Source: Gemmatimonadaceae bacterium (lineage in GTDB: Bacteria > Gemmatimonadota > Gemmatimonadetes > Gemmatimonadales > Gemmatimonadaceae). From it: DNA of 64,000 bases. The stretch covers positions 1-64,000 of the forward strand of contig JAICKA010000001.1 of assembly GCA_025928185.1 (NCBI GenBank), read 5' to 3'. A model generated the notes under the pieces. That model saw nothing but the letters and a program-made list of their open reading frames with translations. It did not search any database and had not been told where the DNA came from. Every line of letters begins with the position of its first letter. Position 1 is the first letter of the stretch. Made by a program: the position numbers and the translations under genes. Positions 9,822 through 54,412 of the stretch are shown here, one piece after another.

Positions 9822-9861
9822 GCTACTCGTCCGCGAGCATTCGCTGATCTAGATTTCGCCA

Positions 9862-9946
9862 CTGACCGGGGTGCCTGCCCACGTCGGGTGCAGGCTGAGA
9901 GAGTCCCGTAGAACCTGATCCGGTTCGTACCGGCGTAGGGAGTCAG
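9862..9946 (+). ncRNA. TPP riboswitch (THI element)
   Basis: All conserved blocks of the thiamine-pyrophosphate aptamer are present in order: GGGGTGCCTG, GCAGGCTGAGAGAG, GAACCTGATCCGG, TACCGGCGTAGGGAG. The closing helix P1 is CTGAC (9862-9866) with GTCAG (9942-9946). The receptor ATG is at 9949, only 2 bases after P1, and the AGGGAG inside the aptamer's 3' strand is the only Shine-Dalgarno. TPP binding, which stabilises P1, should therefore hide the ribosome-binding site directly; no terminator is needed. Confidence 0.96.
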
Positions 9947-9948
9947 AC

Positions 9949-12036
9949 ATGTTCATTCAGCGTATGCCGGCGCTCGCGCGCCGCTCCGCGGCCATGCTGA
10001 TGGCCGCCACACTCGTCGCCGCTCGTCCGCTCGCGGCGCAGTCCACCACCAGCGACACCACGCGCGCGGACACCAGCCGCGCCCACCGCCTCGAAGGCGT
10101 GACCATCCGTGCGGTGCGCGCCTCGGGCGAGGCGCCGATCTCGCAGAAGACGCTCACGAAGGCGGACCTCGAGCCGCGCTACTTCGGCCAGGACGTGCCG
10201 ATGCTGCTCGAAGGCGCGGCCCCATCGCTCACCGCCTATGATGAAACTGGAAACTTCTGGGGCTACAGCTACATCCGGCTGCGCGGCATCGATCAGTCGC
10301 GCATCAATCTCACGCTCGACGGCATCCCGCTGAACGATCCCGAGGACCAGGTCCTCTACTTCGCCGACTTTCCGGATCTCGCCAACAGCCTCCAGTCGGT
10401 GCAGGTGCAGCGCGGCGTCGGCACGAGCAGCAACGGCACCGCGGCGTACGCCGGCTCGATCAATCTCGAGACCATCTCGCTCGCCACGACCCCGCGCGGC
10501 GGGCAGCTCCAGGCCGAGGATGGCTCGTTCGGCTCGCGGCGCCTGAGCGCCGAATACAGCACCGGCCTGCTGCCGAGCCGCTTCGCCGCCTACGCACGGC
10601 TCTCGGCGCTGCACACCGACGGCTATCGCTACCACTCCGGCGTGGAGGGGCGATCGGCGTTTCTGAGCGCCGGCTACTTCGGCGATCGCGATCTGCTCAA
10701 GCTCACGATCACGACCGGCACGATGCGCGACACGATGGCGTATCTCGCCGTGCCTGCGCCGGAGCTCGCGGTCGATCGACGCATCAATCCGCTCACGCCG
10801 CGGGAGCGCGATGGCTTCGGCGAACGTCTCGCGGCGCTGGCGTACACGCGCCTGCTCGGCGGCTCGTCGTCGATCGCGACGACGCTCTACCGCATTTCGG
10901 CGAGCGGCGACTACGACGTGCAGCTCGATTCGCTCGACAACTTCAATCTCGCGTTCGTGTGGTACGGCGTCACCAGCGACTGGACGTACCGCCGGGACGC
11001 GCTGCGGCTCGACGTCGGCGTCAACGGGAACACGTACGCGCGCGACCACGCCGAGTACGAGCATCCGGACCTGACGAATCCACTGTACCTGAACACGGGG
11101 CACAAGCAGGACGCGAGCGCGTTCGTCAAGCTCGCGTACACGGAGGGTCGCGCCACGTGGTTCGGCGACCTGCAGGCGCGGCGCGCGTTTTTCCACTACA
11201 CGCCGGACGCGAACGCCGGCGTCGCCGAACGCTCGATCGGCTGGTCGTTCGTGAATCCGAAAGTCGGCGTGACCTACACGCTCACCACCCCGCTGTCGGT
11301 GTACGCGTCGTACGGAACGAACACTCGCGAGCCGGCGCGGACGGACATGTTCGCCGGCTTCGACAACCTCGACACGTCGAACGTGGCGTTCGTCGGCAGC
11401 CTCGAGCGGGTCAAGCCGGAAACGGTGCACGACGTCGAAATCGGTACGACGTACCGCGCGCACGGCCTCACCGCGCAGGCGAACGTGTACTCGATGGATT
11501 TCCGCAACGAGATCGCGCCGATCGGCGCGCTGAGCTATATCGGCAGCCCGCTCCGCAAGAACGTGCCGGCCAGCTATCGTCGCGGCGTCGAGCTGGACGC
11601 GACGTGGCGCGGCATTCCGCGATTGCTGCTCACCGCCAATGCCACCGCAAGCACGAACCGCATCCGCGCCTACACCGATTCGACTGGCGACACGCCCGTC
11701 ACCTATCGGAACGTGGAGCCGCTGCTCACGCCGCGGTTCACGACCTATGAGCGTGCGGCGGCATCGGTTACGCGGGCGATCACGCTCGCGGTCGAGACGC
11801 GATATCAGAGCCGCTCGTTTCTCACCAACACGGGTGACCCGACCTACGTTCTCCCGGCCGCCTTCAGCCTGGGAGCGAGCCTGGGCTGGCGGTACCGCCA
11901 GTACGAGCTGCTCGTGCAGGGCAACAATCTCCTGAACACGGAGAAGTACGGCAGTGGCTACGCCGGCGACGGCGTGCCGGACTACTTCGTCGTCCCGCCC
12001 CGGAACGTGTTCGTCACCGCCAAGCTGGCGTTCTGA
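9949..12036 (+). CDS. TonB-dependent receptor, TPP-riboswitch controlled (putative thiamine/precursor uptake)
   Basis: Outer-membrane receptor of 695 aa: signal peptide ending PLAAQ, plug domain (EGVTIRAVRASGEAPISQ, VPMLLEGAAPSLTAYDETG, SYIRLRGIDQSRINLTLDGIP, GVGTSSNGTAAYAGSINLET), then a beta-barrel ending in ...RNVFVTAKLAF with terminal Phe. Barrel strands match the ferric-siderophore/TonB receptor fold. The upstream TPP aptamer implies that it imports thiamine or a thiamine precursor, as TPP-regulated TonB receptors do in Bacteroidota; this is inferred from regulation, not from binding residues. No inner-membrane transporter follows, so the partner is elsewhere. Confidence 0.93.
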   Translation: MFIQRMPALARRSAAMLMAATLVAARPLAAQSTTSDTTRADTSRAHRLEGVTIRAVRASGEAPISQKTLTKADLEPRYFGQDVPMLLEGAAPSLTAYDETGNFWGYSYIRLRGIDQSRINLTLDGIPLNDPEDQVLYFADFPDLANSLQSVQVQRGVGTSSNGTAAYAGSINLETISLATTPRGGQLQAEDGSFGSRRLSAEYSTGLLPSRFAAYARLSALHTDGYRYHSGVEGRSAFLSAGYFGDRDLLKLTITTGTMRDTMAYLAVPAPELAVDRRINPLTPRERDGFGERLAALAYTRLLGGSSSIATTLYRISASGDYDVQLDSLDNFNLAFVWYGVTSDWTYRRDALRLDVGVNGNTYARDHAEYEHPDLTNPLYLNTGHKQDASAFVKLAYTEGRATWFGDLQARRAFFHYTPDANAGVAERSIGWSFVNPKVGVTYTLTTPLSVYASYGTNTREPARTDMFAGFDNLDTSNVAFVGSLERVKPETVHDVEIGTTYRAHGLTAQANVYSMDFRNEIAPIGALSYIGSPLRKNVPASYRRGVELDATWRGIPRLLLTANATASTNRIRAYTDSTGDTPVTYRNVEPLLTPRFTTYERAAASVTRAITLAVETRYQSRSFLTNTGDPTYVLPAAFSLGASLGWRYRQYELLVQGNNLLNTEKYGSGYAGDGVPDYFVVPPRNVFVTAKLAF

Positions 12037-45396: not shown

Positions 45397-45662
45397 CTCG
45401 ATTCACCCTCGAGCAAGGACAGGTCGTTCAGCGATGAACGACGAAAGCACCACCTTATGAGCGGCGCAGCGACACCGCAATGCGGTTCTGGTTAGGAAAC
45501 GATGAAGTTCAGACCGGGCAACCACGACCATCAGCACAGCCCGCCATACGCGCCCGCAATTCCTGTTGGACACTACGAAGCGGCGATGGGTTGGTTGCAA
45601 GATGGGCTGTTTCCGGGCCTGCCGTCCGTCGTGCGTCGCGCGGGCTTGCGCGTGGCAAGTCT
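45397..45662. other. Intergenic spacer before repeat copy 2
   Basis: 266 bp. It must hold the adaptor-operon promoter (minus strand); TTCAGCG/CGCTGAAC near 45428 is visible, but no clear -10/-35. Short frames here are not credible genes. Confidence 0.4.
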
Positions 45663-46170
45663 GCCGCGCCGGATCGGGTTGGACTGACTTGGGGACGCGG
45701 ACGAGGGCGGAAACCGACGAACGAGGCGCGGATTGGCTGCTACTCGAACATTAAGACTCTCGCGCCACACTCCCCAAGCATTTCGATTGTTTAATCTTCG
45801 CTCCGTCGCGTTCGTGGCATCCCTGTTCAAGCCACTTGTGGCTGCGTCAGCATCGTTGCTTCAGAGAGCGCCGCGAAGCTGCGGAGAACGGCGGAGAACG
45901 GCGGAGCACTGCTGAGAAGGCTTGTATGGTGAGCGGCCGCGAAGACCATCGCGATCAGGAATGCTACTTCCGAGAACGCCGAGCATCTCACGCGTCATGT
46001 GCGGTGCAGTCGTCAATCATCGGTCGCCAGCAACGCCTCTCCGCGCCGCTCCGCAGTTCTCCGCCGTTCTCCGCGACCCCGTTCCTCTCCCTGAGATGTG
46101 GCCGGAGCGGCGCGACCCTGGGGCACGAGAGGCTCTCGCGCGACGAGAGTCCAACGGGGCTGCGGAGTTT
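45663..46170. repeat. Large nested palindromic intergenic repeat, copy 2 (right arm truncated)
   Basis: Left outer arm is complete (GGGTTGGACTGACTTGGGGA, then CGCGGA.., GGCGGAAACCGACGAACGAG). Inner pair GCGGAGAACGGCGGAGAACG (45891) and CCGCAGTTCTCCGCCGTTCT (46050) is inverted. It also has the ATCAGGAATG.TACTTCCG.GAACGCCGAG.ATCTCA segment shared with copy 3 only. The right outer arm seen in copies 1 and 3 is missing: the element ends in GAGAGTCCAACGGGGCTGCG close to the formate-THF ligase stop. Confidence 0.82.
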
Positions 46171-46187: not shown

Positions 46188-47864
46188 CTAGAACAATCCG
46201 ACAATCTCCCCGCTCGGCAACCTCGCCATCCGCTCGGCGGCAGGCTCCTTCGGCAAGCCCGGCATCGTCATGATGTCGCCGCACTGTGCGACGACGAAAC
46301 CTGCGCCCGCCGAGGCACGCACCTCGTTCACCGAAATGCGGAAGCCGCGCGGCCGGCCGAGCTTCGACGCGTCGTCCGTCAACGAGTACTGCGTCTTCGC
46401 CATGCAGATCGGCGTCGATCCCAGGCCGATCGACTCGAGATAGTCGATCGCACGGCTCGCCTGCGGCGAGTAGTCCGCGCCGTCGCCGCCGTAGATCTGC
46501 TTGACGATGATGTCGATCTTCTCACGGATCGGGAGATTGGTTGGATAGAGAGGACGATACTCGGCACCCTTCTTCTCGAGCAGCGACAGCAGCTCTGCCC
46601 CGAGCACTTCACCGCCCGCTCCGCCCTTCTCCCACACTTCGGTCAGCACGACGTTCACGCCGAGCTGCGCCGCGTGATCGGCTACCGCCTGCAACTCCGC
46701 GTCCGTGTCACTCAGGCGGCGATTGAGCGCGACGACGCTCGGCACGCCGAAGTGCTTCACGTTCTCGATATGCTTTTCGAGATTCGGCAATCCTCGCTCG
46801 AGCGCCGCGAGATTCTCCTCGCCGAGATTCTTCTTGTCGGCGCCGCCGTGCATCTTGAGCGAGCGCACGGTCGCCACGATGACGGCCGCCTCCGGATTCA
46901 GTCCGCCCGCGCGGCATTTGATGTCGAAGAACTTTTCGGCACCGAGGTCGGAGCCGAAGCCGGCCTCCGTGACGACGATGTCGGCGAGCGCGAGCGCCGA
47001 GCGGGTCGCGAGAATGCTGTTGCAGCCGTGCGCGATGTTGCCGAACGGTCCGGCGTGCACGAAGGCCGGTCCGCCCTCGAGCGTCTGCACGAGATTCGGG
47101 CGAATCGCGTCCTTGAGCAGCAGCGCCATCGCGCCGGTCGCGCGCAGCTCGCCGGCGGTCACCGGGCGCCGCTCGCTGCCGGCGGTGGACCCGACGATGA
47201 CGCGCGCCAACCGCTCCTCCAGGTCGTGCGCACTCGTCGCGAGCGCGAGGATCGCCATGATCTCGCTGGCGGGGATGATCACGAAATGCTCTTCGCGCGG
47301 AACGCCGTCGCCCATGCCGCCGAGGCCGACGATGCAGTTGCGCAGCGCGCGGTCGTTCATGTCGATCGTGCGCGGCCAAGTGATGCGCCGGGGATCGAGA
47401 TGGAGCGCGTTGCCCTGCTGGAGATGGTTGTCGAGCAGCGCGGCGAGCAACGCATGCGCGGTGGAGATCGCGTGGAAGTCGCCGGTGAAGTGCAGATTGA
47501 TGTCCTCCATCGGCACCACCTGCGAGTAGCCGCCGCCAGCGGCGCCGCCCTTCATGCCGAACACGGGCCCAAGGCTCGGCTCGCGAATGCAGAGCGCTAC
47601 CCGCTGGCCCATGCGACGCAGCGCCTGCGCCAGCCCGACGGAGACGGTGCTCTTCCCTTCGCCCGCCGGCGTCGGATTGGTCGAGGTGACGACGACGAGG
47701 CGTCCGCGGATCGGCCGTTGAGCGATCTCCAATGGAATCTTCGCCTTGTATTTGCCGTAGAAGTCCAGCTCATCGCGTTCGAGCCCGAGCTCCGCGGCCA
47801 CGTCCTCGATCGGACGCATCTTCACGTGTTGAGCGATCTCGATATCGGATGGAACGGTCGTCAT
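46188..47864 (-). CDS. fhs: Formate-tetrahydrofolate ligase
   Basis: 558 aa. ATP-dependent formation of 10-formyl-THF from formate, linking formate to one-carbon metabolism. P-loop-like TSTNPTPAGEGKST, substrate motifs EPSLGPVFGMKGGAAGGGYS, FTGDFHAISTAHALLAALLD, and VTEAGFGSDLGAEKFFDIKC; full length. ATG at 47864 overlaps the fdhD stop (ATGA); the frame runs on upstream but in a non-coding register. Last gene of the formate dehydrogenase operon, so formate supply and use are co-expressed. Confidence 0.97.
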   Translation of the reverse strand: MTTVPSDIEIAQHVKMRPIEDVAAELGLERDELDFYGKYKAKIPLEIAQRPIRGRLVVVTSTNPTPAGEGKSTVSVGLAQALRRMGQRVALCIREPSLGPVFGMKGGAAGGGYSQVVPMEDINLHFTGDFHAISTAHALLAALLDNHLQQGNALHLDPRRITWPRTIDMNDRALRNCIVGLGGMGDGVPREEHFVIIPASEIMAILALATSAHDLEERLARVIVGSTAGSERRPVTAGELRATGAMALLLKDAIRPNLVQTLEGGPAFVHAGPFGNIAHGCNSILATRSALALADIVVTEAGFGSDLGAEKFFDIKCRAGGLNPEAAVIVATVRSLKMHGGADKKNLGEENLAALERGLPNLEKHIENVKHFGVPSVVALNRRLSDTDAELQAVADHAAQLGVNVVLTEVWEKGGAGGEVLGAELLSLLEKKGAEYRPLYPTNLPIREKIDIIVKQIYGGDGADYSPQASRAIDYLESIGLGSTPICMAKTQYSLTDDASKLGRPRGFRISVNEVRASAGAGFVVAQCGDIMTMPGLPKEPAAERMARLPSGEIVGLF

Positions 47865-48724
47865 GCCCACGATGAGTCGTCTCCCGAAGCCAGAGGGTGA
47901 ATGCGTTCGCGGCCGCAGTACACGTTCCCGGTGCTGGCGCGCAGCAATCCGACGAGCGTGACCCCGGCCGATTCGGCGAAGCGAATGGCGAGTCCCGTCG
48001 GGCGGGAGATCGCCGCCAACAGTTCCACGCCGCGTGACGCGGCCTTCTGCACCATCTCGTAGCTCGCTCGGCTCGTGACGACCACGAACCCGTCGCTGGC
48101 CGCCCGTCGCTCGCGGGCGAGCGCGCCGAGCAGCTTGTCGAGCGCATTGTGCCGGCCCACGTCTTCGCGAACGAGCACGAGCTCTCCATCCGGCCGTGCC
48201 CAACCGGCGGCGTGCACGGCGCTGGTGGCGTCGTTGAGCGTTTGCTGATGATTCAGCTCGGACGCCGCGCGCCAGAGCGCCGCCGGCGCGACCGTGAGGG
48301 CACGACCGACGGGCGGCGGCACGCGCATCGCGTCGGCGATGGTTTCGACGCCGCAGAGTCCGCATCCCGTGCGCGCCGCCATCGATCGCGCAGCAAGCGC
48401 CTCGGCGCGCGCGGCTGGAATCTCGAGTTGCAGCTCCACGCCCTGACTCGCCCGCACGACGTCGAGGCGCCGCACGTCGTCCGGCGACTCGATGATGCCT
48501 TCAGTAATTGAAAAGCCGATCGCGAGATCGTCGAGATCGGCCGGCGTCGCCATCACCACGACGTGCGAGCGTCCGTTGTAGACGATCGCCACGGGCACTT
48601 CCTCCGCGACGATCGCGCGCGATTCCGAAACGTCGCGCCCGGACAGACGCATGAACGACCGCTCCTCCGCCGCCGGCGCGTATCCCAGGCCGGCGAGCGG
48701 ACGATCAGCGACGGCCATCGCCAT
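47861..48724 (-). CDS. fdhD: Sulfurtransferase FdhD
   Basis: 287 aa. Delivers sulfur from IscS to the molybdenum cofactor of formate dehydrogenase, essential for its activity. Motifs: AIVAEEVPVAIVYNGR, ATPADLDDLAIGFSITEGII, and the active Cys pair AARTGCGLCGVE; VREDVGRHNALDKLLGA and VTSRASYEMVQKAA complete the fold. ATG at 48724 overlaps the fdh Fe-S subunit by 20 bp; 48718 and a GTG at 48742 are other options. Cofactor chaperone for the selenoenzyme encoded upstream. Confidence 0.95.
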   Translation of the reverse strand: MAMAVADRPLAGLGYAPAAEERSFMRLSGRDVSESRAIVAEEVPVAIVYNGRSHVVVMATPADLDDLAIGFSITEGIIESPDDVRRLDVVRASQGVELQLEIPAARAEALAARSMAARTGCGLCGVETIADAMRVPPPVGRALTVAPAALWRAASELNHQQTLNDATSAVHAAGWARPDGELVLVREDVGRHNALDKLLGALARERRAASDGFVVVTSRASYEMVQKAASRGVELLAAISRPTGLAIRFAESAGVTLVGLLRASTGNVYCGRERIHPLASGDDSSWA

Positions 48725-49712
48725 TGCCGGCGGGCGGTGCACGGTTGCCGACGAATCGCCAGCCGAATCGCCCCTTGATGCAGAGATTCCCCTGCGTGAT
48801 CGCGTTCTCGAGCGGCGACGTGGCCTTCACGATCTCGCCGTCGTCGACGTGCAGCGTGAGCGTGCAGCCGACGCCGCAGTACGGGCAGATCGTGTCCGTC
48901 GTCGTCATGCGACTTTCGTCCCACACGCCGGCGGCGCGGCGGTCGAACTCCGTCTTCGCCATGAGCGCGCCGGTGGGACAGACCGCGATGCAGTTTCCGC
49001 AATACACACAGGCGGAATCGGGCAGCGGCACGGTGAACTCGGTCGAGATGTGCGCGTCGAATCCGCGGCCCGCGACGGCGATGGCGAACGTGTTCTGATG
49101 ATCCGGCCCGCACGCTTCCACGCACTTGTAGCAGAGAATGCACTTGGCGTAGTCGCGCACGTACAGATCGTTGTCGATCGTCGGCGGCTCGGCCACCGTT
49201 GCGGCGTAGCGTGGATCGGGCGGCTCGTGATGGCCAGGCTGCGCGGCAGCTCGCGCACCGGCGGCGGCGGCCGGCGCGGGCGGCCCAAAACGGTCGGGTT
49301 TTGCGTCGTACTCGTCGATCCACGCCTGCACCTCTGGCGTCGCCGACAGGTCCACCGACGATGCGAGCAGCTCGAGCACGAGCTTGCGGCTGTGGCGGAC
49401 TCGCGGCGAATCGGTGCGCACGACCATGCCCTCTTCCACCGTGCGCGAGCACGATGGCACCAGCACGCGCGCGCCCTCGACCTCCACGACGCAAATGCGG
49501 CAGGCGTTCACGGGATGCAGCGTCTCGAGAAAGCACAACGTCGGGATCTCGACGCCAATCATGCGGCAGGCGGCGAGAATGGACGTGCCGTCGGGGACGC
49601 TGACCTCCCGGCCGTCGATGGTGAGACGAACCTTGCGCGGCGCCACGCGGCGATTCACGTCGGTGGCGCGCGTGGGGCGCTGCAACTGGACGAGCTCCGC
49701 GATCGCCGTCAC
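48705..49712 (-). CDS. Formate dehydrogenase iron-sulfur subunit (N-terminal half of canonical FdhA)
   Basis: 335 aa. Order: [2Fe-2S] domain (Cys60, 71, 74, 88: CFLETLHPVNACRIC ... VPSC), His-Cys type linker helix, two [4Fe-4S] sites (CILCYKCVEAC about 191-201; CVYCGNCIAVC about 235-245), and finally a complete molybdopterin-enzyme [4Fe-4S] domain (ICPYCGVGCTLTLHVDDG 275-292; GNLCIKGRFGWRFVG 309-322). Normally this last domain is joined to the catalytic part; here the chain stops 13 residues later. GTG start overlaps the previous stop (GTGA). Confidence 0.9.
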   Translation of the reverse strand: MTAIAELVQLQRPTRATDVNRRVAPRKVRLTIDGREVSVPDGTSILAACRMIGVEIPTLCFLETLHPVNACRICVVEVEGARVLVPSCSRTVEEGMVVRTDSPRVRHSRKLVLELLASSVDLSATPEVQAWIDEYDAKPDRFGPPAPAAAAGARAAAQPGHHEPPDPRYAATVAEPPTIDNDLYVRDYAKCILCYKCVEACGPDHQNTFAIAVAGRGFDAHISTEFTVPLPDSACVYCGNCIAVCPTGALMAKTEFDRRAAGVWDESRMTTTDTICPYCGVGCTLTLHVDDGEIVKATSPLENAITQGNLCIKGRFGWRFVGNRAPPAGNGDGRR

Positions 49713-51619
49713 GCCGACGCTCCGTGAGTACCGTTCAACAGACCAACCCGATGAATCGCCGACTCGATCGCGGCGTACGCCGTCTGGCCGAGCCCGCAGA
49801 TGGATGCGTCGCGCATCGCGGCGCCGACCTCGTCGAGCAGCGCCGTCTCGCCGGGCATTCCGCCGCGGGTCGCGCCGCAGGCGATGCGATGCAGCGCTTC
49901 CTCCTGGCGCACCGTGCCGACGCGGCACGGCACGCACTGCCCGCACGACTCGTCGCGGAAGAACGACGCGATCCGCAGCAGGATTTGGCGCATGTCGACG
50001 CGATCGTCGAACACCATGATCACGCCGGAGCCGAGCGTCGCATTGGCCGCGCGGGCGCCTTCGAAGGTGAGCGGAATGTCCAGCTCGTCCGCGCGCACGA
50101 ACACGCCGGCCGCGCCGCCGAGCAGCACGGTTCGAATCGACGCGCCGTCGGACGGACCGCCGGCGAGCGATATCAATTCTCTCAAGCTCGTGCCGAACGG
50201 CACTTCGTACACGCCGGGTTCGGCCACCGAGCCGCTCAAACAGAACAGGCGCGTGCCCGTGGATTGCGCCGTGCCGATGCGTGCGAAGGCCGCGCCGCCG
50301 TTCAATACGATGAATGGAATGTTGGCGAGCGTCTCGACGTTGTTCACGACGGTCGGCAGTCCAAAGAGCCCGGCCTGCGCGGGGAACGGTGGCTTGTTTC
50401 GCGGCTCGCCGCGATAGCCTTCGATCGAATTGAAGATCGCGGTCTCCTCGCCGCAGATGTATGCGCCCGCACCGCGCCGGAGCTCGATGTCGAACGACAC
50501 ACCGCGGCCGAGCACGTCCGTGCCGAGCAAACCGTTCAGGCGTGCCTGGTCGATGGCGTGCTGCATCCGCTGCGCGGCGAGCGGATACTCGCCGCGGATG
50601 TAGAGAAAGCCGCGTTCGCAGCCCGTGGCGAATCCGGCGATCGTCATCGCTTCGATGATCGCGAACGGGTCGCCCTCGAGCAGTACGCGATCCTTGAATG
50701 TGCCGGGTTCCGACTCATCTGCGTTGCAGACGAGGTAATGCGGCCGCGTTGCCTGCTTCGCGACCGCATCCCACTTTCGGCCAGTGGGGAACGCCGCTCC
50801 GCCGCGGCCCATCAGTCGCGACTCGATCACTTCGTGGATCACCGCCTCGGCACCAATCTCGACGGCGCGGCTCAACGCCTCGTAACCGCCGGCGGTGCGA
50901 TACGCCGCGAGGCTGGCCGGATCGGTCGTGCCGATGCGCGGAAGGAGCGAGAGCGGCCCACTCGCGGCGTGCACGACGCCGGCGCTGGCACTCGGACCGG
51001 GCGAAGCACCGCGCGGAACGCGGCCTTCGCGCAGAATCACGCGCGCCGCGTCGGCAGTCAAGGCGGGAACCAGCTCTTCCTGGGGCGCGAGCCCCGCCTG
51101 CTGCACGAACGCGGCCGGCGCGCGATCACACATCCCTAAACAGGGCGATCGCATCCACACGGCGCCCCGCGCATCCACTTGCACGTGATCGGCGCCAGCG
51201 GCGTGCGCGTGCGCCGGTCCCACTGTGCGCTCGAGCTCCGCGATCAGCGACTCGGCGCCCTTGCAGCGGCAGGCGATGTCATCGCAGACGTGCAGCACCC
51301 GCGGCGGCCGCGGCGTCGTGGCGAGCAGCGCGTAGAATGTCGCGACGCTCCACGCTTCGGCCGGCGGCACGTCGAGTCTCGCGCAGATGTACTCGATGCC
51401 CGTCTCGCTGATCCAGCCGACGCGCGACTGCAACGCGCGCAGGGCCGGCAGCAGCATGTGTCGCTGCTGCCGCAGCTCGCGCCCGCCGAATGCGACGCGC
51501 ACGTCGACTTCGTCGCCACGCTCTCCGCCGTGCCAGCCGGAGCGCGCTGGGCCGAGCACCGCGTCGACCGCAGCTCGCTCGTCACTCGTCGGTGTGGTGT
51601 CGTGAAGCCGCAGATCCAT
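49709..51619 (-). CDS. NAD-reducing diaphorase subunit, NuoE-NuoF fusion
   Basis: 636 aa. Residues about 1-180 are NuoE-like with [2Fe-2S] Cys (HVCDDIACRCKGAESL, MRSPCLGMCDRAP). Residues about 240-636 are NuoF-like: FMN/NAD site LMGRGGAAFPTGRKWDAVA, NADESEPGTFKDRVLLEGD, RGAGAYICGEETAIFNSIEG, and [4Fe-4S] ESCGQCVPCRVGT. It passes electrons from formate to NAD+. ATG at 51619 overlaps the catalytic gene stop (TGATG). The NuoEF fusion is known in formate dehydrogenases and hydrogenases of the FdsBG/HoxF type. Confidence 0.94.
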   Translation of the reverse strand: MDLRLHDTTPTSDERAAVDAVLGPARSGWHGGERGDEVDVRVAFGGRELRQQRHMLLPALRALQSRVGWISETGIEYICARLDVPPAEAWSVATFYALLATTPRPPRVLHVCDDIACRCKGAESLIAELERTVGPAHAHAAGADHVQVDARGAVWMRSPCLGMCDRAPAAFVQQAGLAPQEELVPALTADAARVILREGRVPRGASPGPSASAGVVHAASGPLSLLPRIGTTDPASLAAYRTAGGYEALSRAVEIGAEAVIHEVIESRLMGRGGAAFPTGRKWDAVAKQATRPHYLVCNADESEPGTFKDRVLLEGDPFAIIEAMTIAGFATGCERGFLYIRGEYPLAAQRMQHAIDQARLNGLLGTDVLGRGVSFDIELRRGAGAYICGEETAIFNSIEGYRGEPRNKPPFPAQAGLFGLPTVVNNVETLANIPFIVLNGGAAFARIGTAQSTGTRLFCLSGSVAEPGVYEVPFGTSLRELISLAGGPSDGASIRTVLLGGAAGVFVRADELDIPLTFEGARAANATLGSGVIMVFDDRVDMRQILLRIASFFRDESCGQCVPCRVGTVRQEEALHRIACGATRGGMPGETALLDEVGAAMRDASICGLGQTAYAAIESAIHRVGLLNGTHGASA

Positions 51620-53595
51620 CAATCGTCTCCTGCCGCCGCGACGCGATCAACGCGCCGCTCCGTTGGCGATGGACGCCGGCGCGCCGGCTCGACCCGCACT
51701 GCACACGCCTTGAATTCCGCTGTGCCCGAATGCGGATCGGTCGCGTTGATCGTGAGCAGATTCGTCGCGACGTCGTCCGGAAAGTGAAGCGTCATGAACA
51801 CGATGCCTGGCCGCAATCCACGATCGATGTAGGCGGGCGCGGTGACCGTGCCGCGCCGGGACGTGACCTGGACCAGCGTACCGTTTGCCACGCCGAGGCG
51901 GGCCGCATCCTCCGGCGACATATCCAGCGTCTCGCCGCGATGCAGCGGCGAGCTGTACCCGCCCGACTGCACGCCCGTGTTGTACGACTCGAGTCGACGC
52001 CCGGTAGTGAGCGTGAGAGGATACTCATCGTCGGGCTGCTCGACGGGGCCTTCGTGGTGCACCACCGAGAAGGCGGCGAGCTTGCCGCGCTTGGCTGGAT
52101 CGGCGTCCCACAGTCGCGCGTGCAGGAATTGCGTGCCGGGATGGTTCTCGTCGGGACAGGGCCACTGCAAGCCGTGCAGCGCCTCGAGCCGCGCGTAGCT
52201 CATGCCGGCGAGGCCCGGCGCGAGCGACCGCAGCTCGTTCCACACGTCTTCGGCCGACGGATGGCCCCAATCGTAGCCGAGCCGCCGCGCCAGCTCGCAC
52301 ATGATCCACAGCTCGTCGCGCGCGTCGTGCGGCGGCTCGACGGCCTTGCGCACGCGCTGCACGCGGCGTTCGCTGTTCGTGACGGTGCCTTCGCCCTCGG
52401 CCCAGGTGGCCGCCGATGGCAGCACGACGTGCGCGAGCTGCGCCGTCTTCGTGAGAAAGATCTCCTGGACGACGAGGTGCTCGAGATTCTCGAGCAGATG
52501 CGTGACGTGCGCGGCGTCGGCGTCCGACTGCGCCGGATTCTCGCCGATCACGTACAGCGCCGTGAGCTCGCGGCGCTGCATCGCGTCGATCATCTCGGTG
52601 AGATGCCAGCCGTCGTCCGGCAGGATGTCGCGCTTCCAGGCGCGCTCGTACTTGGCGCGGTGCTCCGGATTGCCGACGTCCTGAAAGCCCGGCAGCTTGT
52701 TCGGGAGCGCGCCCATGTCGCCGCCGCCCTGCACGTTGTTCTGGCCGCGCAGCGGGTTGCAGCCGCAGCCGTACCGGCCGACGTGGCCGGTGAGCAGCGC
52801 GAGGTTGATCAGCGCGTAGACGTTGTCGACGGCATTGTGGTGCTCGGTGATGCCGAGCGTCCAGCAGATCATGGCGCGATCGGCACGCGCGTAGGCCAGC
52901 GCCGAGTCGCGGATCACGTCAGCGGGAATGCCGGTGACGCGCTCCGCCATCTCGAGCGTATACGCCTCGACAGACTGCCGGTACGCATCGTAGTTGGTCG
53001 TGCCGCGCTTGATGAAACTCTCATGAGCGAGGCCGGCATGGATGATCACGCGCGCCATCGCGTTGGCGAGCGCGATGTCGCTGCCGACGGCGAGCCCGAG
53101 CCACACGTCCGCCCACGCCGCGGAGCTCGTGCGCCGCGGATCGACGACGTGCAGCTGCGCGCCGTTCTGAATGCCCTTGAGCAGATGATGAAACCAAATC
53201 GGATGCGCTTCACGGGCGTTTGATCCCCACAGGAAGACGAAGTCGGTGTGCTCCGCTTCCTCGTATGAGCTCGTGCTGCCGCCCGCTCCCAGGATTGTCG
53301 CCAGACCGACGACGCTGGGAGCGTGTCAGGTCCGGTTACAACTATCGATGTTGTTGTTGCCGAACACCGTCCGCGCGAACTTCGCCGCCATGTAGTTGAC
53401 CTCGTTGGTCGACTTGGAGCAGCTGAAGATTCCGGTCGTGCGGCGGCCGTGCGCGTCGAGCGATCGGCGGATTCCCTCGGCGGCGCGGTCGAGCGCTTCG
53501 TCCCACGTGGCAGGACGGAGCCCGCCGTTGTCGCGAACGAGCGGCTGGGTCAGACGCGAATAACCGACAGCAGACTTGGAGCGAGACGACTTCAC
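51619..53595 (-). CDS. Formate dehydrogenase catalytic subunit, selenocysteine-containing (in-frame UGA)
   Basis: 658 aa if UGA at 53326-53328 is read as Sec (residue 90). Around it: NNNIDSCNRT-U-HAPSVVGLATILGAG, exactly the FDH active site, where other enzymes have Cys or Sec before His-x-P. Reading on without the stop gives the rest of the molybdopterin domain (FLWGSNAREAHPIWFHHL, VVDPRRTSSA) and the cap (GVQSGGYSSPLHRGETLDMS). The UGA is followed by a SECIS hairpin (53284-53323). GTG at 53595 is chosen since GGAG lies 6 bases before it; the ATG at 53601 has GGAG directly abutting. It lacks the N-terminal [4Fe-4S] domain, which sits in the downstream Fe-S subunit. Needs SelABCD encoded elsewhere. 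Confidence 0.93.
53284..53323 (-). promoter_or_regulatory. Bacterial SECIS element
   Basis: Starts 3 bases after the UGA: 9-bp stem CGCTCCCAG / CTGGGAGCG, internal loop, upper stem GTCG / CGAC with U-G and C-G pairs, and apical loop GGUCU. From memory, E. coli fdhF also has 18 nt between UGA and a GGUCU loop; the spacing here is the same 18 nt. Binds SelB. It lies within coding sequence. Confidence 0.9.
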
Positions 53596-53660
53596 GTGCA
53601 TCTCCACTGCAAGGGGGATTCGAGACGATGCACAAATGCGCACAGGGGGGCAAGGGGATT

Positions 53661-53698
53661 GGTCCGTGGTCCGTGGTCCGTGGTCCGTGGACCGTGGT
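53661..53698. repeat. Heptanucleotide tandem repeat (GGTCCGT)
   Basis: Four perfect GGTCCGT units, then GGACCGT, in the spacer upstream of the formate dehydrogenase operon start, about 60 bp from the catalytic gene start and before repeat copy 3. Confidence 0.9.
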
Positions 53699-53717
53699 TG
53701 TCGCGCGGGGCGGGTGT

Positions 53718-54412
53718 GGCGCGCCGAATCGAGTTGGACTGCATTGGGGACGCGGATTTGGCGGAAACTGGCGGACGAGGCGCGGATTGGCGGCTACTGG
53801 CGCGCCGAGTCTATCGCGCCACACCCACAAATCCTTTGGTTTTTCATCCGTTCCATTCGTCCCATCCGTGTCATCGCAGTTCAACCCGTTGTGGCTGCGT
53901 CGGCATCATTGCGTGGGAAAGTGTCGCGAAGTCGCGGAGAACGGCGGAGAACGACGGAGCACTGCTGAGAAACTTTGAATTGTCAGGGGTCAGAATCCGA
54001 TCGCCGATCAGGAATGGCACTTCCGTGAACGCCGAGAATCTCAGGCGTCATGTGCGATGCACTCGTCGTTCATTCTTCATCACCACCACCAGCAACGCCT
54101 CTCCGCGCCTGTCCGCAGTTCTCCGCAGTTCTCCGCCGTTCTCCGCGACCCCGTTCCTCTCCCTGAGACGTAGCCGGCCACGCCGCCTCTGTGGGGCGAC
54201 AGCCCATCGCGCCACAGATGGTCACGACGGCGCTGCGGAGTCGGCGGAGGCGACGGCGTGGGAGTTGATCGAAACGCCACCATCACAAAGTCGTGTTCGT
54301 TATTTACCTGGCGCAGGGAACTCCATACGCCACTCGGGCCGGATTCGCGCCTCGTTCGCCGGTTTCCGCCAGATCCGCGTCCCAAAAACAGTCCAACCCG
54401 ATTCAGCGCACC
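53718..54412. repeat. Large nested palindromic intergenic repeat, copy 3 (longest)
   Basis: 695 bp. Left outer arm GGCGCGCCGAATCGAGTTGG, then ACTGCATTGGGGACGCGG, GGCGGAAACTGGCGGACGAG; the right outer arm is inverted and nearly exact (GTTCGCCGGTTTCCGCCAGA, TCCGCGTCCC, GTCCAACCCGATTCAGCGC). Inner pair GTCGCGGAGAACGGCGGAGA and CCGCCGTTCTCCGCGACCCC. Extra segment 53985-54060 (GGGTCAGAATCCGATCGCC..) and CATCACCACCACCAGCAACG also occur in the others. It fills the gap between the fdh operon start and the PadR gene. Confidence 0.88.

Follow-up and report, generated by a model that had tools for sequence, protein, structure and literature searches.

Genes and features of the locus

The window is the whole 64,000-nucleotide stretch of Gemmatimonadaceae DNA that was analysed, and its minus strand carries an operon of five genes (Table 1). 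The first of these encodes the catalytic part of a formate dehydrogenase (FDH). Its reading frame runs from an ATG at 53601 to a stop at 51621-51619 and is open on both sides of an in-frame TGA, as a sequence-only reading of this DNA had proposed; that reading gave no strand and noticed neither the divided alpha subunit nor the operon of five genes. The TGA lies in the context NNIDSCNRT-U-HAPSVVGL, the U-H-x-P active-site position of FDH, where it had been placed before. Selenocysteine (Sec) FDHs are textbook knowledge. Under ordinary table 11 translation, the catalytic gene appears as two ORFs of 105 and 495 aa, the fragmentation that had been foreseen. Downstream, the ATG of the NuoE-NuoF fusion overlaps the catalytic stop (TGATG), the presumed start of the Fe-S gene overlaps the stop of the fusion (GTGA), and the formate--tetrahydrofolate ligase gene overlaps fdhD by ATGA.

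Table 1. Features of the operon, with positions in the window
Feature	Position	Strand	Basis
FDH catalytic subunit (molybdopterin + dinucleotide-binding domains), in-frame UGA, without N-terminal Fe4S4 domain	51619..53601	-	profile match TIGR01591
Sec UGA codon, residue 92	53326..53328	-	TGA in 106/106 split-type genes
SECIS hairpin with a partly conserved outer stem (9 bp) and an inner stem (6 bp) under the GGUCU loop (53307-53303)	53284..53323	-	RNA folding + comparative test
NuoE-NuoF fusion (2Fe-2S thioredoxin-like, Nuo51 FMN-binding, SLBB, NADH_4Fe-4S)	49709..51619	-	domain matches
Detached N-terminal part of FDH alpha: 2Fe-2S + 4Fe-4S ferredoxin domains + Molybdop_Fe4S4; presumed GTG start	48705..49712	-	domain + TIGR01591 matches
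FdhD, FDH accessory sulfurtransferase, presumed start codon	47861..48724	-	domain/profile matches
Formate--tetrahydrofolate ligase	46188..47864	-	domain match

The identification as FDH made in the sequence-only reading was borne out by profile searches. Pfam finds Molybdopterin (1.2e-68) and Molydop_binding domains in the catalytic ORF, and this half alone scores 667.5 bits on the FDH alpha equivalog model TIGR01591, narrowly passing the curated cut-off of 666.25 even though it lacks the first 51 positions. The ORF also matches nitrate reductase models, below their cut-offs, as might be expected if the operon encoded some other Sec-using molybdopterin oxidoreductase, such as a nitrate reductase-like enzyme. 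The TIGR01591 result argues against such an enzyme, as do the best solved relatives of the catalytic half (HDCR FdhF, two FDH chains, and FDH-H) and the neighbouring fdhD and formate--tetrahydrofolate ligase genes, and we regard it as very improbable. When modelled with AF2 (pLDDT 75.2), the catalytic half resembles both FDH1 and FDH-H in structure (TMq 0.81), with the Sec loop (residues 89-92) among the low-confidence segments of the model. The model of the Fe-S half was too poor for use (pLDDT 53.2).

Direct repeats of about 0.47 kb and 77% identity flank the operon (45640-46110 and 53703-54177). The mobile unit that such repeats suggest was set aside, as copies of the repeat are scattered over the genome (119 match rows). 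A short GGTCCGT tandem array lies upstream of the operon at 53660-53697.

Recoding of the UGA

The codon was read in relatives from two sources. One was a search of 200 genomes of the phylum, of which 141 gave a match, with 30 loci kept; the other was a scan of genome contigs (best 80 of 587 loci), with search patterns that left out the Sec codon. Together they gave 110 loci, and one (L047) does not cover the Sec position. The remaining 109 have TGA in 107 cases and TGT in two (L049 and L050, 43-45% identity). The split type accounts for 106 of the 107 TGA genes, namely 26 from the phylum search, window included, and the best 80 of the 587 contig loci. TGA is thus found in the window gene and all 105 split-type relatives; some organisms may occur in both sets, and 98 sequences are distinct over codons 60-130. 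One further split gene (L153, genome G169) also has TGA. The best named loci are from Gemmatimonadaceae metagenome-assembled genomes (MAGs; L051 and L052, 81-83% identity). One more stop is listed in each of two split-type genes (G133 and G026).

The codon was also read in 60 of the roughly 110 further phylum-search matches (a hand count) that reach the Sec position. These 60 comprise the first 40 by score and 20 picked by hand, seven of them for lacking selB, and so are not a random sample. In this set 34 have TGA, all in selB-positive genomes, and 26 have Cys, 17 of them in selB-positive and nine in selB-negative genomes (seven listed without a match, two absent from the 150 positives). Apart from L153, the 34 TGA genes (33 of them) occupy frames of 911-1972 aa, which would have room for a fused enzyme; fusion itself was checked only for L048-L050.

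The sequence-only reading had allowed that a close homologue with a Cys codon could expose the TGA as a sequencing error. None was found among the close homologues checked; Cys occurs only in more distant proteins, at about 34-45% identity (28 read, two and 26 from the two sets). The base quality of the assembly is unknown, and Cys versions of FDH-like proteins do exist in the phylum, so one might still think of an error or of a decayed gene with a Cys ancestor. However, every split-type gene has TGA at the Sec position, which excludes a sequencing error, and protein identity among relatives is 63-84% on both sides of the TGA. With the machinery present and the hairpin under selection (both below), error or decay is refuted and retains next to no probability. 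As in bacterial selenoproteins, the in-frame UGA falls at a redox active site, and the frame downstream of it is conserved.

Folding of 62 nt of the RNA places an outer 9-bp stem 2 nt past the UGA and, beyond some unpaired bases, an inner stem of 6 bp with GGUCU at its tip. The earlier description of a 9-bp stem with a GGUCU apical loop was right as to the hairpin and the loop, but the loop caps the 6-bp stem, and two helices had been merged into one. By energy alone the hairpin does not stand out (z -1.49, equalled by 13 of 200 shuffles), and folding energy was dropped as proof of it. Rfam at the gathering threshold returned no SECIS over the window and listed only a TPP riboswitch (9857-9958, plus strand, 75.1 bits).

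It is comparative evidence that settles whether the hairpin is real. In the 98 distinct sequences, each conserved codon was set against the synonymous codon usage of its own gene. GGT encodes the loop glycine in 96 of the 98, against 9.4 expected, and this column ranks first of 210 (z 30.3; the sequences are related, so z is no probability). Among the other hairpin codons, Ala94, Leu100, Ser96, Val97, and Gly105 rank 2, 3, 4, 6, and 11, and Pro95, Ala106, Gly107, and Gly108 rank 140, 176, 203, and 162. Only the loop glycine stands far apart, since z values of up to 10.9 (Ser410, rank 5) occur in columns that do not belong to the hairpin. Pairing in the inner stem reaches 100% of cells, compared with 81.9% in 300 amino-acid-preserving synonymous redraws (sd 1.2, maximum 85.9) and 98.0% in 500 within-column codon shuffles (maximum 98.6), and two of its pairs change from C-G to G-C on both sides, in four and two sequences. 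The outer stem is weaker, with 77.2% paired against 68.8% redrawn (maximum 72.4) and 75.3% shuffled (maximum 77.0). The loop reads GGTCT in 104 of the 106 split-type genes, and by our reading GGTCT stands at the loop position in just one of the 28 Cys proteins (L186). The SECIS hairpin just downstream of the UGA is under selection. In the two remaining split-type genes, both Rokubacterial (L077 and L082), the loop is GGGCU, which may be a SECIS variant that occurs in nature.

Selenoprotein machinery had been predicted for this organism, with a lack of sel genes named as the finding that would speak against recoding. The organism's own genome is a fragmented assembly (3.71 Mb, 288 contigs, 90.1% complete, 5.3% contamination), and selA, selB, selC, and selD were all found in it, on contigs other than that of the window. 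SelA scores 542.7 bits (cut-off 267.9), SelB 356.7 bits (cut-off 242.25) with its winged-helix domains present, and SelD 369.9 bits (cut-off 125); the tRNA-Sec, with anticodon TCA (UCA), scores 74.2 bits, above the gathering score. Immediately 3' of selD comes selC. SelD, too, is probably a selenoprotein: its frame contains a TGA at residue 27, counted from the presumed start, within CAGUAAK (L018:1453-2511, contig C53 of the same genome). The hairpin at this codon is equalled in energy by 151 of 200 shuffles (z 0.64), so that for SelD it is codon position and machinery that point to Sec. Selenophosphate synthetase is listed as verified in one table of a published source.

Across the phylum, selB was detected in 150 of 200 genomes at E <= 1e-60, which indicates that Sec use is common in Gemmatimonadota. 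All 27 split-type genomes of the phylum sample have it, 26 by search and one (G144) in pieces. The latter was considered as a split-type genome free of selB and ruled out, as selB lies in pieces at contig ends and tRNA-Sec is present; a negative at this threshold can therefore be a gene in pieces. In the window gene, SelB with Sec-tRNA-Sec would bind the GGUCU hairpin just after the UGA and insert Sec at residue 92, where it would ligate the metal. Such ligation is established for FDH-H.

A divided alpha subunit

FDH alpha carries its proximal [4Fe-4S] domain in the same chain as the catalytic domains. Here, this domain is absent from the catalytic ORF, which begins just where the Fe4S4 domain of known enzymes has ended, and is present in a separate gene, which stops soon after CIKGRFGW. 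The two halves are complementary on the 672 positions of TIGR01591 (Fe-S protein 1-49, catalytic half 52-672) and lie side by side on the R. capsulatus FDH alpha chain 6tg9_A, at 24-303 and 306-943. The C-x2-C-x3-C motif upstream of the UGA occurs in none of the 106 split-type genes, three of which (L027, L058, and L130) have frames that run into a contig end, and in all three fused genes. The four Cys of the detached Fe4S4 domain are invariant in the 17 aligned sequences.

Gene order is likewise kept. Of the 80 contig loci (best 80 of 587), 57 show the catalytic gene, NuoEF, and the Fe-S gene in this order; where 4.5 kb or more of downstream sequence is available, the order holds in 42 of 43. 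The exception, L129, has neither partner within 6 kb downstream. In four of the 57 loci, all titled Chloroflexi (L068, L103, L104, and L106), 2.1-3.2 kb lie between the catalytic gene and NuoEF. Counting both strands, 26 of the 80 loci contain FdhD and 13 contain formate--tetrahydrofolate ligase; many of the loci are short.

It could be argued that the UGA is recoded while the detached Fe-S protein serves another partner, and that the catalytic polypeptide works without a proximal [4Fe-4S] cluster. The match of the Fe-S protein to the FDH model is weak (47.2 bits over 49 positions), its best NCBIfam score is to an [FeFe] hydrogenase model, the domain order of the operon differs from that of the fused enzyme, and L129 has no partner nearby. 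Yet the C-terminus of the Fe-S protein corresponds to exactly the part of the model that the catalytic half is missing, and the invariant Cys and the conserved operon order also weigh against another partner, which we judge unlikely. Because the halves are exactly complementary and the order is conserved, we infer instead that the detached protein would supply the proximal cluster and the ferredoxin domains in trans.

The UGA at the active site, the selected hairpin, the machinery, the split, and the operon are read from sequence, and the operon very probably encodes a Sec-containing, Mo- or W-dependent, likely NAD(H)-linked FDH whose alpha subunit is made as two polypeptides. A NuoE/NuoF-type diaphorase and a NuoG-type ferredoxin part, the components of FdsABG-type NAD-dependent FDH, are both in the operon. 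Electrons would pass from formate through the Fe-S clusters and the NuoE-NuoF fusion to NAD+, or in reverse for CO2 reduction. Judging by family and operon, FdhD may serve cofactor sulfuration, and formate--tetrahydrofolate ligase may join formate to the folate C1 pool.

Distribution and relation to known formate dehydrogenases

The 80 contig loci (best 80 of 587) carry titles from nine phylum-level groups, and all or nearly all are MAGs. A quick tree was built from 88 rows: 84 split-type genes (the 80 contig loci, the window, and three others, with the remaining 22 left out), E. coli FdhF, and three fused genes. The split-type rows form one group on a long stem, with SH-aLRT 100, against FdhF and the fused genes; the tree programme warned that long branches make placing unsure. 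The titled rows span nine phylum-level groups with some mixing, which could reflect transfer or mis-binning. These data probably describe a distinct and widespread FDH branch, in which the Sec catalytic chain is permanently without its own proximal [4Fe-4S] domain and a conserved partner two genes downstream delivers it in trans. The branch may be ancient, or uncultured bacteria of many phyla may have exchanged it repeatedly.

No description of the split form was found in the open-access literature searched, a scope outside which most subscription papers and all bioRxiv preprints lie. In the same literature, no paper was found for "Gemmatimonadota" alongside Sec FDH, and four were found for "Gemmatimonadetes". 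One of these four (PMC4807772) describes a Sec fdhA in a planctomycete. By term search, a 2026 review on the prokaryotic selenoproteome does not name "Gemmatimonadota" in its main text. The split branch may have been easy to miss because the standard reading cuts the gene at the UGA. Such a reading ends the enzyme there, and it would also show a catalytic chain that lacks the Fe-S domain one expects. The formate and CO2 chemistry of these bacteria may therefore be underestimated. An FDH that comes naturally in two parts may also make it possible to exchange its proximal cluster domain or to titrate it.

Compared with characterized enzymes, the window gene resembles E. coli FDH-H (fdhF) in its U-H-x-P TGA, in its catalytic fold, and in the GGUCU loop, which starts 18 nt after the UGA in both. 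However, FDH-H is a single chain that carries a [4Fe-4S] cluster of its own, and it is not known to have a NuoEF partner. In the NAD-dependent FDH of R. capsulatus (6tg9) and in Methylorubrum FDH1 (7vw6), one fused alpha chain spans both of the halves that are split in the window; the Rhodobacter enzyme has separate NuoE- and NuoF-like subunits and Cys in the active site. The closest solved sequence to the catalytic half is HDCR FdhF (7qv7, 543.8 bits). This 743-residue protein aligns only from residue 62 and therefore has the N-terminal part missing from the split gene, and its partners are hydrogenases. Within the phylum, L048 is a fused Sec-FDH with TGA, a GGUCU hairpin, and an adjoining NuoEF-like gene as in the window, but its identity is about 45%, and its Fe-S N-terminus lies in the same frame as the catalytic part.
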